64,000 nucleotides of DNA from positions 2,934,542 to 2,998,541 of the forward strand of contig NC_015856.1 of assembly GCF_000221045.1 (NCBI RefSeq), read 5' to 3'. The stretch is from Collimonas fungivorans Ter331. Lineage in GTDB: Bacteria; Pseudomonadota; Gammaproteobacteria; Burkholderiales; Burkholderiaceae_D. Below, piece after piece: positions 14,498 through 54,227 of the stretch. The position numbers and the translations under genes were made by a program. Position 1 is the first letter of the stretch. Each line of letters starts with the position of its first letter. The notes below the pieces were generated by a model, which saw only the letters and a program-made list of their open reading frames with translations, did no database searches and was not told where the DNA came from.

Positions 14498-14537
14498 AAA
14501 AAAAGCGATGCCACCGCTCAGGTGGCATCGCTTTTTT
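14498..14537. terminator. Bidirectional terminator between emrB-type and autotransporter genes
   Basis: AAAAAAGCGATGCCACC pairs with GGTGGCATCGCTTTTTT around a 5-nt loop. A-run and T-run flank the stem, so it can stop transcription from either side. Confidence 0.93.
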
Positions 14538-17390: not shown

Positions 17391-17438
17391 AAAAAAAGAG
17401 GGCGATGCATTGTTACATTGCATCGCCCTCTTTGTTTT
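17391..17438 (-). terminator. Terminator downstream of pit
   Basis: A long stem AAAGAGGGCGATGCA / TGCATCGCCCTCTTT with an 8-nt loop. On the minus strand it is followed by seven T, so it serves the pit operon. Confidence 0.9.
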
Positions 17439-25073: not shown

Positions 25074-25111
25074 GATTTTCCGGAGCAAGCAGGACCCTGC
25101 TCCGGAAAATC
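25074..25111. repeat. 14-bp perfect inverted repeat after suhB
   Basis: GATTTTCCGGAGCA and its exact complement TGCTCCGGAAAATC are separated by 10 nt. It is placed like a terminator of suhB, but no T-run follows on either strand. Confidence 0.6.
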
Positions 25112-28333: not shown

Positions 28334-28365
28334 AAAATGGGGCTGTCCGAAGACAGCCCCATTTT
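28334..28365 (-). terminator. Terminator of tRNA-Pro with UUCG loop
   Basis: AAAATGGGGCTGTC pairs with GACAGCCCCATTTT. On the minus strand the loop is TTCG, the very stable UUCG tetraloop, and T residues follow. It lies 7 nt after tRNA-Pro, so tRNA-Arg needs its own promoter. Confidence 0.85.
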
Positions 28366-50683: not shown

Positions 50684-51727
50684 TTACCAGACAGCCTTGC
50701 CGGCGTTATCCTTGATCTGGGCTTTCCACGACTCTTCCACCAGCTTCACCACCGATGCAGGAATCGCGACATAGTCCAGTTCGGTAGCAGCGGCGCCGCC
50801 GTTCTTATACGCCCATTCAAAGAACTTCAGGACTTCCTTGCCCTTGGCGGCATCGGCCTGGCTCTTGTGGATCAGGATGAAAGAAGCGCTGGTGATAGGC
50901 CAGCTGGTCTTGCCGGCCGCGTCGGTGAAATCCACCGCGAAACCTGGGGTCTTGGCCCAGTCGGCGCCGGCTGCAGCAGCCTTGAAAGTTTCGTCGTCAG
51001 GCTGCACGAAGCTGCCGTCGCGATTCTTCAGCTGAGTATGCTGCAGCTTGTTTTTCTTGGCGTAAGCGTACTCGACATAACCGATCGCGCCCTTGATCTT
51101 TTGCACGTTGGCGGCGACGCCTTCGTTACCCTTGCCGCCCACGCCGACCGGCCATTTGACCGCAGTGCCGGCGCCAACGCCGGTCTTGAACGCCGGGCTG
51201 GTCTTCGACAGGTAGCTGGTGAACACGAATGAAGTGCCGGAACCGTCAGCGCGGTACACCACGGTGATGTCGTCGGCCGGCAGTTTCACGCCTGGGTTGA
51301 GGGCCGTGATTTCAGGCGCATTCCACTTGGTGATCTTGCCCAGGTAGATGTCGGCAAGCACAGGACCGGTCAGCTTGACCTGGCCTGGAGTCACGCCGTC
51401 CAGGTTCACGACCGGCACCACGCCGCCCATGATCGCAGGGAATTGCGCCAGGTTGTCGGTGTTCAGGTCTTCTACCTTCAACGGCATGTCGGAAGCGCCG
51501 AAATCCACAGTTTTCGCCTTGATCTGCTTGATGCCGCCGCCGGAGCCGATCGATTGATAGTTCAAGCTGTTGCCAGTTGCGGTTTTGTAGGCTTCAGCCC
51601 ATTTGGAGTAGATCGGGTAAGGAAAAGAAGCGCCGGCGCCGGTGATTTCCGCTGCCATGACCGAAGAAACCGCCAGGGTCGAACCCATTGCCAGAATGGC
51701 GGCCTTAACGAAGTGATTCAATCGCAT
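50684..51727 (-). CDS. pstS: Phosphate-binding protein PstS
   Basis: A 347-residue periplasmic protein. Signal peptide to about residue 25 (LAVSSVMA|AE), then the PstS start EITGAGASFPYPIYSKWAEAY. The phosphate-binding blocks are SIGSGGGIKQIKAKTVDFGASDMPL and VYRADGSGTSFVFTSYLS. First gene of the operon; behind a Pho box and a long hairpin leader, so strongly phosphate-starvation controlled. Confidence 0.97.
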   Translation of the reverse strand: MRLNHFVKAAILAMGSTLAVSSVMAAEITGAGASFPYPIYSKWAEAYKTATGNSLNYQSIGSGGGIKQIKAKTVDFGASDMPLKVEDLNTDNLAQFPAIMGGVVPVVNLDGVTPGQVKLTGPVLADIYLGKITKWNAPEITALNPGVKLPADDITVVYRADGSGTSFVFTSYLSKTSPAFKTGVGAGTAVKWPVGVGGKGNEGVAANVQKIKGAIGYVEYAYAKKNKLQHTQLKNRDGSFVQPDDETFKAAAAGADWAKTPGFAVDFTDAAGKTSWPITSASFILIHKSQADAAKGKEVLKFFEWAYKNGGAAATELDYVAIPASVVKLVEESWKAQIKDNAGKAVW

Positions 51728-51773
51728 TTGTTACTCCCTTGTTGACTATAGATGTGGTGTGCCCAAGTCGAGA

Positions 51774-51819
51774 CTGTTGTGAAATTCATCTCCTTGCAAG
51801 GAAGCCAATTTCACAACAG
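51774..51819 (-). repeat. 13-bp perfect stem-loop in the pstS leader
   Basis: CTGTTGTGAAATT (51774-51786) and AATTTCACAACAG (51807-51819) are exact complements. The 20-nt loop contains a perfect 12-bp palindrome TCCTTGCAAGGA (51791-51802). It lies between the Pho box and the pstS ATG. No T-run follows. Confidence 0.8.
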
Positions 51820-51852
51820 CCCCTAAGACAGGGCGAACTCTAACCAAGATTT

Positions 51853-51870
51853 ATGACAGCTTTATGACGA
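51853..51870 (-). promoter_or_regulatory. Pho box upstream of pstS
   Basis: On the minus strand TCGTCAT-AAAG-CTGTCAT: two 7-mers 11 bp apart. The second is identical to the CTGTCAT consensus and the first matches 5 of 7. TAGAGT, about 11 nt further on, can serve as the -10 of a PhoB-dependent promoter. Confidence 0.85.
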
Positions 51871-52016: not shown

Positions 52017-52034
52017 TCTTCATCAAGCTGTCAT
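52017..52034 (+). promoter_or_regulatory. Candidate Pho box upstream of ppk
   Basis: TCTTCAT-CAAG-CTGTCAT. The second 7-mer is perfect, the first keeps only 4 of 7 positions. It ends 48 nt before the ppk start. Confidence 0.45.
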
Positions 52035-52082
52035 ATTCAGTGCATACACTGCGCCGTAACCATCAGACCAGTTGCCTGATTC

Positions 52083-54227
52083 ATGAATAAGAAAACCAAG
52101 CCGGACGATGATTCCAAGCACGCCAGCGCCAGATTAGGCGCCAATCCAAGCTATCTGAACCGCGAACTGTCGCAACTGGCCTTCAACCGGCGCGTCATGG
52201 CCCAGGCCGAGGACCGGCATGTGCCGTTGCTGGAGCGACTGCGGTATCTATGCATCGTCAGCAACAACCTCGACGAATTCTTTGAAGTCCGCATCGCCAG
52301 CTTGCTGGCAAACAGCCAGGTTGAAGGCGGCGGCGCCGAGTCGCCTGCCTTGGCCGCCGCGCTTGAGCGCACCAGCATAGAGTGCCACCAGATCGTCGAC
52401 CGCCAGTACGCCATCCTCAACCAGACCATCTTGCCGCAGCTGTCGGCCAACCGCATCCACCTGCTGCGGCACGGCGACCGCAATGAAGAACAGCGGGCAT
52501 GGGTGAAATCCTTCTTTGAACAGGAAATCCGCCCCCTGCTGACCCCGATCGGGCTGGATCCGGCTCACCCGTTTCCCCAGGTATTAAACAAAAGCCTCAA
52601 TTTCATTGTCGAAATGGCGGGCAAGGATGCGTTCGGGCGCAGCACCTCGATTGCCATCATCAAGGCGCCGCGCGTATTGCCGCGCGTGATCAGGCTGCCG
52701 GATGTGCTGTCGCCCGACGGCGCCTCGTTTTGCCTGCTGTCGTCCATCATCCATGCCCACATAGGCGATCTTTTTGCCGGCCGCCAGATATTGGCTTATT
52801 CGCAATTCCGGGTGACGCGCAACAGCGACCTGTGGGTCGACGAAGAAGAGGTCAAGAACCTGCGCCAGGCGCTGCAAAGCGAGCTGCAGAGCCGCCAGTT
52901 CGGGGTTGCCGTCAGGCTGGAGGTGGCGCGCAGCTGCCCGTCGCACCTGGCCCAGTTTCTGCTCGACCAGTTTGGCATCGCCCCCAACCGCTTGTACGCG
53001 GTCGACGGCCCGGTCAACATGGTGCGCCTGTCGGAGATGATCGACCAGATCAGCGACGCCAGCCTGCGTTTCCCGCCGTTTGCTCCGGGCCTGCCGTTGC
53101 ACCTGGAAAACGGTAACGACATCTTCGCGCAGCTGAAACAGAAAGACGTGCTGCTGCACCATCCGTTCCAGTCGTTCCAGCCGGTAGTCGACTTTGTCCG
53201 TTCCGCGGCATTCGACAGCAATGTGGTGGCGATCAAGCAAACCATTTACCGCACCGGCATGAACTCGGACCTGATGGAAGCGCTGATTGTTGCGGCCCAG
53301 CGCGGCAAAGAAGTGATGGTGATCGTTGAACTGATGGCGCGCTTCGACGAGGAAGCCAACATCAACTGGGCTGACAAGCTGGAGCGCGCCGGCGCCCAGG
53401 TGGTATATGGCGTGGTCGGCCTCAAGACCCATGCCAAGCTGTCGCTGGTGATCCGGCGCGAAGCCGACAAGAGCGGCAACGGCGAACTGCGCTATTACGC
53501 CCACCTCGGCACCGGCAACTACCATCCGACCACCACCAAGCTATACACCGACTTCGGCTTGCTCACTTCAAACCAGAAGCTGGCCACTGAAGTCAATGAG
53601 GTCTTCCTGCACCTGACCAGCCTCACCAAACCCAAGAAAATGGATTACCTGTGGCTGGCGCCGTTCCTGCTGCAAAAGGAAATCATCAGGGCGATCCACA
53701 ACGAAGCCGAGATCGCCCGCAAGGGCCGGCCGGCGCGCATCGTCGCCAAGATGAATGCGCTGCTGGACGAATCCGTGATCCGCGCCCTCTACGAAGCCTC
53801 CGCCGACGGCGTCAAGATCGAACTGATCGTGCGCGGCGCTTGCGCGCTCAGGCCTGGCGTTCCGGGATTGTCCGAGAATATCCACGTGCGCTCCATCATC
53901 GGCCGCTTCTTGGAACACAGCCGTATTTATTATTTCCGCAACAACCTGCAGCACGATGTCTACCTGGCCAGCGCCGACTGGATGAACCGCAACCTGTTCC
54001 GGCGGGTCGAAGTGGCATTCCCGGTGCTGGACAAATCGCTCAAGAGGCGAGTCATCAACGAAGGCCTCACGCCTTACCTTAAAGACAACACCAATGCCTG
54101 GAGCCTCGGATCCGATGGCAATTGGCATAAAAACAAGCCTCACCGGAGACAAAAACCATACGGCGCGCAACGCCATCTGATGTTGGCCTTGGGCGCGCTT
54201 TCCCCTACACATTACACAAACAAGTGA
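52083..54227 (+). CDS. ppk1: Polyphosphate kinase 1
   Basis: A 714-residue enzyme that polymerises the gamma-phosphate of ATP into polyphosphate. N domain (SYLNRELSQLAFNRRVMAQAEDR), head domain, and two C domains are seen. Active-site segments are FDEEANINWADKLERAGAQVVYGVVGLKTHAKLSLVIRR with the phospho-accepting His, and RYYAHLGTGNYHPTTTKLYTDFGL. Length is normal. It is divergent from pstS, linking phosphate storage with starvation control, and 23 nt before sixA. Confidence 0.96.
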   Translation: MNKKTKPDDDSKHASARLGANPSYLNRELSQLAFNRRVMAQAEDRHVPLLERLRYLCIVSNNLDEFFEVRIASLLANSQVEGGGAESPALAAALERTSIECHQIVDRQYAILNQTILPQLSANRIHLLRHGDRNEEQRAWVKSFFEQEIRPLLTPIGLDPAHPFPQVLNKSLNFIVEMAGKDAFGRSTSIAIIKAPRVLPRVIRLPDVLSPDGASFCLLSSIIHAHIGDLFAGRQILAYSQFRVTRNSDLWVDEEEVKNLRQALQSELQSRQFGVAVRLEVARSCPSHLAQFLLDQFGIAPNRLYAVDGPVNMVRLSEMIDQISDASLRFPPFAPGLPLHLENGNDIFAQLKQKDVLLHHPFQSFQPVVDFVRSAAFDSNVVAIKQTIYRTGMNSDLMEALIVAAQRGKEVMVIVELMARFDEEANINWADKLERAGAQVVYGVVGLKTHAKLSLVIRREADKSGNGELRYYAHLGTGNYHPTTTKLYTDFGLLTSNQKLATEVNEVFLHLTSLTKPKKMDYLWLAPFLLQKEIIRAIHNEAEIARKGRPARIVAKMNALLDESVIRALYEASADGVKIELIVRGACALRPGVPGLSENIHVRSIIGRFLEHSRIYYFRNNLQHDVYLASADWMNRNLFRRVEVAFPVLDKSLKRRVINEGLTPYLKDNTNAWSLGSDGNWHKNKPHRRQKPYGAQRHLMLALGALSPTHYTNK

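Follow-up and report, generated by a model that had tools for sequence, protein, structure and literature searches.

The pstS leader of Collimonas fungivorans Ter331 contains a long inverted repeat which is transcribed and kept under selection as a stem in the RNA, at a probability of about 0.8. That its main role is protection of the message, as a 5′-terminal stem-loop of the ompA type, is a more specific reading to which we give about even odds. The preliminary description had named conserved pairing in relatives as the check on the repeat, and such pairing was found in all 14 Collimonas species having pstS as well as in nine Herbaspirillum species, in which an unrelated stem covaries. The kept pairing together with this unrelated, covarying Herbaspirillum stem at the same offset speaks for an RNA structure rather than a DNA operator.

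The DNA analyzed (the window) comprises 64,000 nucleotides of the C. fungivorans Ter331 genome. In it, pstS is the first gene of pstSCAB-phoU-phoB-phoR, of which the downstream genes were identified as well, and its nearest relatives are found in species of Collimonas, a genus of the Oxalobacteraceae in the Betaproteobacteria (94–99% identity). The gene and its expression signals are located as follows:

50684..51727, minus strand: pstS (NCBIfam NF008171, E 1.3e-137), with the ATG at 51727
51853..51870, minus strand: Pho box TCGTCATAAAGCTGTCAT upstream of pstS, with 2 mismatches to the consensus
51837..51842, minus strand: predicted −10 hexamer TAGAGT, following the Pho box after 10 nt, unchanged in Collimonas
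51829, minus strand: predicted transcription start, the G of GUC, placed from the −10 position as the eighth base after TAGAGT
51734..51740, minus strand: Shine-Dalgarno sequence (SD) AAGGGAG, 6 nt before the ATG and outside the hairpin

The previously proposed Pho box could be confirmed: it is one of only two matches to the Pho-box pattern in the window (at most 3 mismatches) and does not vary among 13 Collimonas species (pi 0). The arrangement is that of a PhoB-regulated promoter, namely a Pho box of two 7-bp repeats with an 11-bp period, followed after about 10 nt by a −10 element. Judged by its letters and position, TAGAGT would correspond to the TATAAT-like element that a PhoB/sigma-70 promoter is expected to have, and transcription from the predicted +1 (51829) would result in a pstS leader of 102 nt. 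A candidate promoter hexamer further downstream, TATAGT (near 51754–51749), was rejected due to the absence of a usable −35 spacing and of conservation in the Collimonas alignment. Divergent from pstS, the polyphosphate kinase gene ppk is located at 52083–54227 on the plus strand. It is preceded by its own Pho-box-like site TCTTCATCAAGCTGTCAT (52017–52034, plus strand) and, after about 10 nt, by the −10-like TACACT (both within 52017–52051), so that pstS and ppk probably have back-to-back PhoB promoters.

The hairpin and its parts were assigned as follows:

51770..51823, minus strand: leader hairpin of 17 bp, 13 perfect Watson-Crick, two G-U pairs
51823–51807, minus strand: 5′ arm of the hairpin, GGGGCTGTTGTGAAATT
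51806–51787, minus strand: hairpin apex of 20 nt, neutral in Collimonas
51786–51770, minus strand: 3′ arm of the hairpin, AATTTCACAACAGTCTC
51767..51769, minus strand: GAC, complement of the predicted 5′-terminal GUC (51829–51827), possible closing helix

At its core is the 13-bp inverted repeat reported in the preliminary description, whose arms CTGTTGTGAAATT (51774–51786) and AATTTCACAACAG (51807–51819) are exact complements; with G-U pairs counted, the RNA stem extends beyond the length claimed before and reaches 17 bp. From the predicted +1 onwards, the leader consists of GUC, UUA, the 17-bp stem with its 20-nt apex, GAC, a spacer, the SD and the ATG. The stem thus begins at about +7, i.e., some 6 nt behind the predicted 5′ end, and the SD (51740–51734) lies about 30 nt past the stem end (51770). 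GUC and GAC are paired at all three positions in nearly all Collimonas rows. With a start at 51829, the predicted pairing probability of the first 3 nt is about 0.3 in this genome and 0.08–0.93 across Collimonas. Besides the main stem, a small apical helix is possible in the RNA, and the apex mostly has no separate stability beyond that of shuffles.

The leader of this genome folds with z = −4.1, and the values of the Collimonas leaders mostly range from −2.4 to −5.4, with one species at −0.9. When the 110-nt leader was shuffled 5000 times with dinucleotides preserved, a perfect inverted repeat of at least 13 bp appeared once, which bears out the earlier statement that such a perfect stem is unlikely by chance. 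The window contains 10 perfect repeats of at least 12 bp (loop 3–40), compared to 0–1 per shuffled window. Among the perfect inverted repeats of 14–17 bp (14499–14537, 17395–17433, 25074–25111, and 28334–28365), three end in A/T runs as bidirectional terminators do, and the one at 25074–25111 has none. That comparable perfect repeats occur at other places of the window, and that several of these end in A/T runs and are terminator-like, would fit a mobile or chance palindrome, i.e., a repetitive element or terminator remnant that is functionless here. The pstS leader repeat, however, is without such runs, is present in a single copy in the genome and is retained by all Collimonas species that have pstS despite the high neutral rate; this origin is already contradicted and very improbable. 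A repeat element was rejected on the same single-copy result, and an intrinsic terminator or attenuator was rejected since the leader lacks a G + C-rich stem with a T-run and the terminator scan was empty, as the preliminary description had anticipated.

For the rates of change within the genus, 13 Collimonas species were used, and the fourteenth locus, which is incomplete, was left out. The apex, which also varies in length, has a pi of 0.329 and the 4-fold degenerate sites of the same genes one of 0.303, whereas the values are 0.071 for the 5′ arm and 0.042 for the 3′ arm; the spacer between stem and SD has a pi of 0.094. Since the arms change slowly and the apex at the neutral rate, the apex is free and the arms are held by selection. 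The palindrome TCCTTGCAAGGA in the loop, which had been reported together with the repeat, is indeed present (51791–51802), but it was rejected as a part of the feature because it is lost in most Collimonas species and changes at the neutral rate. The same comparison bears on a short leader ORF, which would start at a GTG inside the stem (AGGGGCTGTTGTG) and encode an attenuating leader peptide. In this genome there is a frame of 22 codons with an SD-like AGGGG, but across Collimonas the frame ranges from 1 to 31 codons, is interrupted by frameshifts and stops immediately in one species, and its apex-encoded part is neutral, so that this explanation is refuted by the comparison and can practically be discarded. 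As to pstS itself, the frame of the gene is lost around residue 258 in one Collimonas genome (G009), with the rest readable in another frame, due to either an assembly error or a broken gene, and no pstS match was obtained at the cut-off used in a much reduced Collimonas genome of 1.7 Mb.

In the main stem, 96.6% of the cells of the Collimonas alignment are paired. Double, i.e., compensatory, changes do not occur in it within the genus, and shuffles of the partner letters equal the observed values; for this reason, Collimonas alone cannot separate RNA pairing from conservation of the DNA sequence. Furthermore, the 8-bp core CTGTTGTG/CACAACAG is invariant across the genus, which hints at an additional constraint on the sequence beyond pairing. 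These eight invariant bases per arm and the main stem free of compensatory change are what would be expected of a DNA operator, in which a dimer of a second regulator binds the two half-sites beside the Pho box. A precedent for second regulators at pst promoters is reported with RamB at pstS of C. glutamicum (PMC4448153). Against an operator, the arm spacing is not fixed but amounts to 19, 20 or 22 nt depending on the Collimonas species, which rotates the half-sites relative to each other. The repeat is also located downstream of the predicted start and occurs once per genome, with no copy at another promoter. Together with the Herbaspirillum stem, which is unrelated in sequence and keeps its pairing at the same offset, this makes an operator rather unlikely.

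The nine Herbaspirillum species with a pstS-leader hairpin (e.g., Herbaspirillum huttiense and H. frisingense) comprise eight from one clade and the outlier G276, and their leaders are about 107–126 nt long. The hairpin has no sequence similarity to that of Collimonas, and its offset and layout (5′-GUC-N3-stem-N2-GAC) are the same, with GUC and GAC invariant in all nine species and the stem starting at position 7. In the anchored, ungapped core, 85 of 90 cells pair, compared to 24–53 at slid registers. RNAalifold, applied unaided to a MAFFT alignment, yields the identical structure. In this alignment, four pairs with double changes were counted against a shuffled mean of 1.0, and 1 of 500 shuffles was as high, with a control that ignores relatedness and with each double change stemming from one row. 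Between G276 and G264, seven double changes in the 10-bp core keep the pairing. When arms are swapped between G276 and the other species, only 1–4 of the 10 pairs remain, and the stem of G276 may have been rebuilt rather than evolved pair by pair; pairing is kept there either way. Folds of single leaders were significant in some species of this set, with z-scores of −2.0 to −3.9 in five, and not significant in G184 (−0.5). The remaining Herbaspirillum leaders (71–75 nt) do not outperform shuffled sequences in folding.

The next closest pstS is that of Glaciimonas. Several species of this genus have a recognizable left arm GUUGUGAAAU, for which pairing with a partner further downstream is predicted in four of five leaders. 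Clear support was obtained only for G. soli, in which a stem of different sequence lies at the same place, and the z-scores of the Glaciimonas leaders are not significant. Collimonas shares with other PhoB-dependent pstS promoters the Pho box, its spacing to a −10-like element and the pstSCAB-phoU-phoBR operon behind it, but differs in the 102-nt leader with a hairpin; in most Oxalobacteraceae, the pstS leaders are 27–48 nt long and the hairpin is absent. Six of the short leaders, from Noviherbaspirillum and relatives (L035, L041, L051, L128, L133, and L135), carry GTC-N7-GAC at the predicted start, i.e., the triplets at either side of the long hairpins of Collimonas and Herbaspirillum, and the hairpin may have grown between these triplets. 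In 40 pstS leaders outside the family but within the order, inspection by eye revealed mostly short leaders or leaders with no equivalent layout. Two leaders from another family of the order (L221 and L222) have small hairpins, GGAAGG/CCTTCC and AGAAGG/CCTTCT, which follow the likely start within a few bases.

Common to the lineages with the hairpin is a strong stem directly behind the predicted 5′ end, and protection of the message could work as follows. On the PhoB-induced pstS(CAB-phoU-phoBR) message, the transcribed repeat would form a stable stem-loop some 6 nt behind the predicted 5′ end and would bury or crowd this end, by which removal of pyrophosphate by RppH and 5′-end-dependent entry of RNase E would be hindered. 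With the resulting slower decay, this highly expressed message for a periplasmic binding protein would persist longer in phosphate starvation, and the downstream SD would stay free for ribosomes. High amounts of the pst message are expected under starvation. Protection by a 5′ stem-loop is expected to be weaker with an unpaired 5′ tail, and the pairing of the first 3 nt of only about 0.3 in this genome is thus a weak point of the protection reading. A second one is that the sequence of the stem core is conserved beyond the requirements of pairing, and that most Oxalobacteraceae have no such hairpin counts against it as well.

The protection of mRNAs by 5′ stem-loops via RppH and RNase E is established (reviewed in PMC3997798, which cites Emory 1992, Bouvet and Belasco 1992, and Bricker and Belasco 1999 for it). 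As in the ompA and papA mRNAs of Escherichia coli, a highly expressed message has a stable stem-loop, here maintained as a structure and lying near what is predicted to be the 5′ end, with the SD outside the stem and an unimportant apex sequence. Unlike in those mRNAs, the 5′ end of pstS is a predicted one, its 6-nt segment may be partly unpaired, and the gene is a PhoB-regulated transporter gene. Stress-related 5′ UTR stem-loops with a stabilizing effect are reported for recA of Acinetobacter baumannii and vacA of Helicobacter pylori (cited in the review PMC7509114). They share with the pstS leader a 5′ UTR hairpin, for which a role in stability would be analogous, and differ from it in sequence and gene.

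The hairpin could instead act in translation control, bind a small RNA or an RNA-binding protein (e.g., ProQ, Hfq or CsrA), or serve as a switch that exposes or hides the SD. The invariance of the stem sequence beyond the needs of pairing would agree with this, and with a start 4 nt earlier the 5′ CCCU as well as the SD are mostly paired in some predicted ensembles. However, the SD lies well past the stem and its predicted pairing varies with species and start, no conserved alternative fold or ligand pocket was found, and the apex is neutral; such roles are conceivable but unlikely. In Rfam, no family was matched at the gathering threshold, and the hairpin matched only microRNA-hairpin models, far below threshold. 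Of the three roles offered in the preliminary description, stabilization of the message is best supported, a second DNA-binding regulator is disfavored, and a switch has no specific support.

The titles and abstracts covered on pstS leaders, pstS mRNA stability, Herbaspirillum, and Collimonas describe no such element. It is real and, within this literature, has no earlier description, but as a stem-loop in a 5′ leader it belongs to an ordinary type of element. In textbooks, the pst system exemplifies transcriptional control, and its promoter is usually regarded as controlled by PhoB only; the point of interest is that hairpins of the same layout and different sequence are found at this promoter. 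The occurrence in related genera of a stem with kept shape and changed letters, at one and the same offset, suggests a further layer of control that acts on the message. It is distinctly unlikely that a small RNA or RNA-binding protein docks on the stem during phosphate starvation, with the invariant CUGUUGUG/CACAACAG core as the recognition element and the stem rebuilt independently by the lineages; if true, the pst message would be regulated post-transcriptionally as well as by PhoB. Collimonas, Herbaspirillum, and their stemless short-leader relatives represent a compact natural set for studies of 5′ hairpins and message life outside E. coli.
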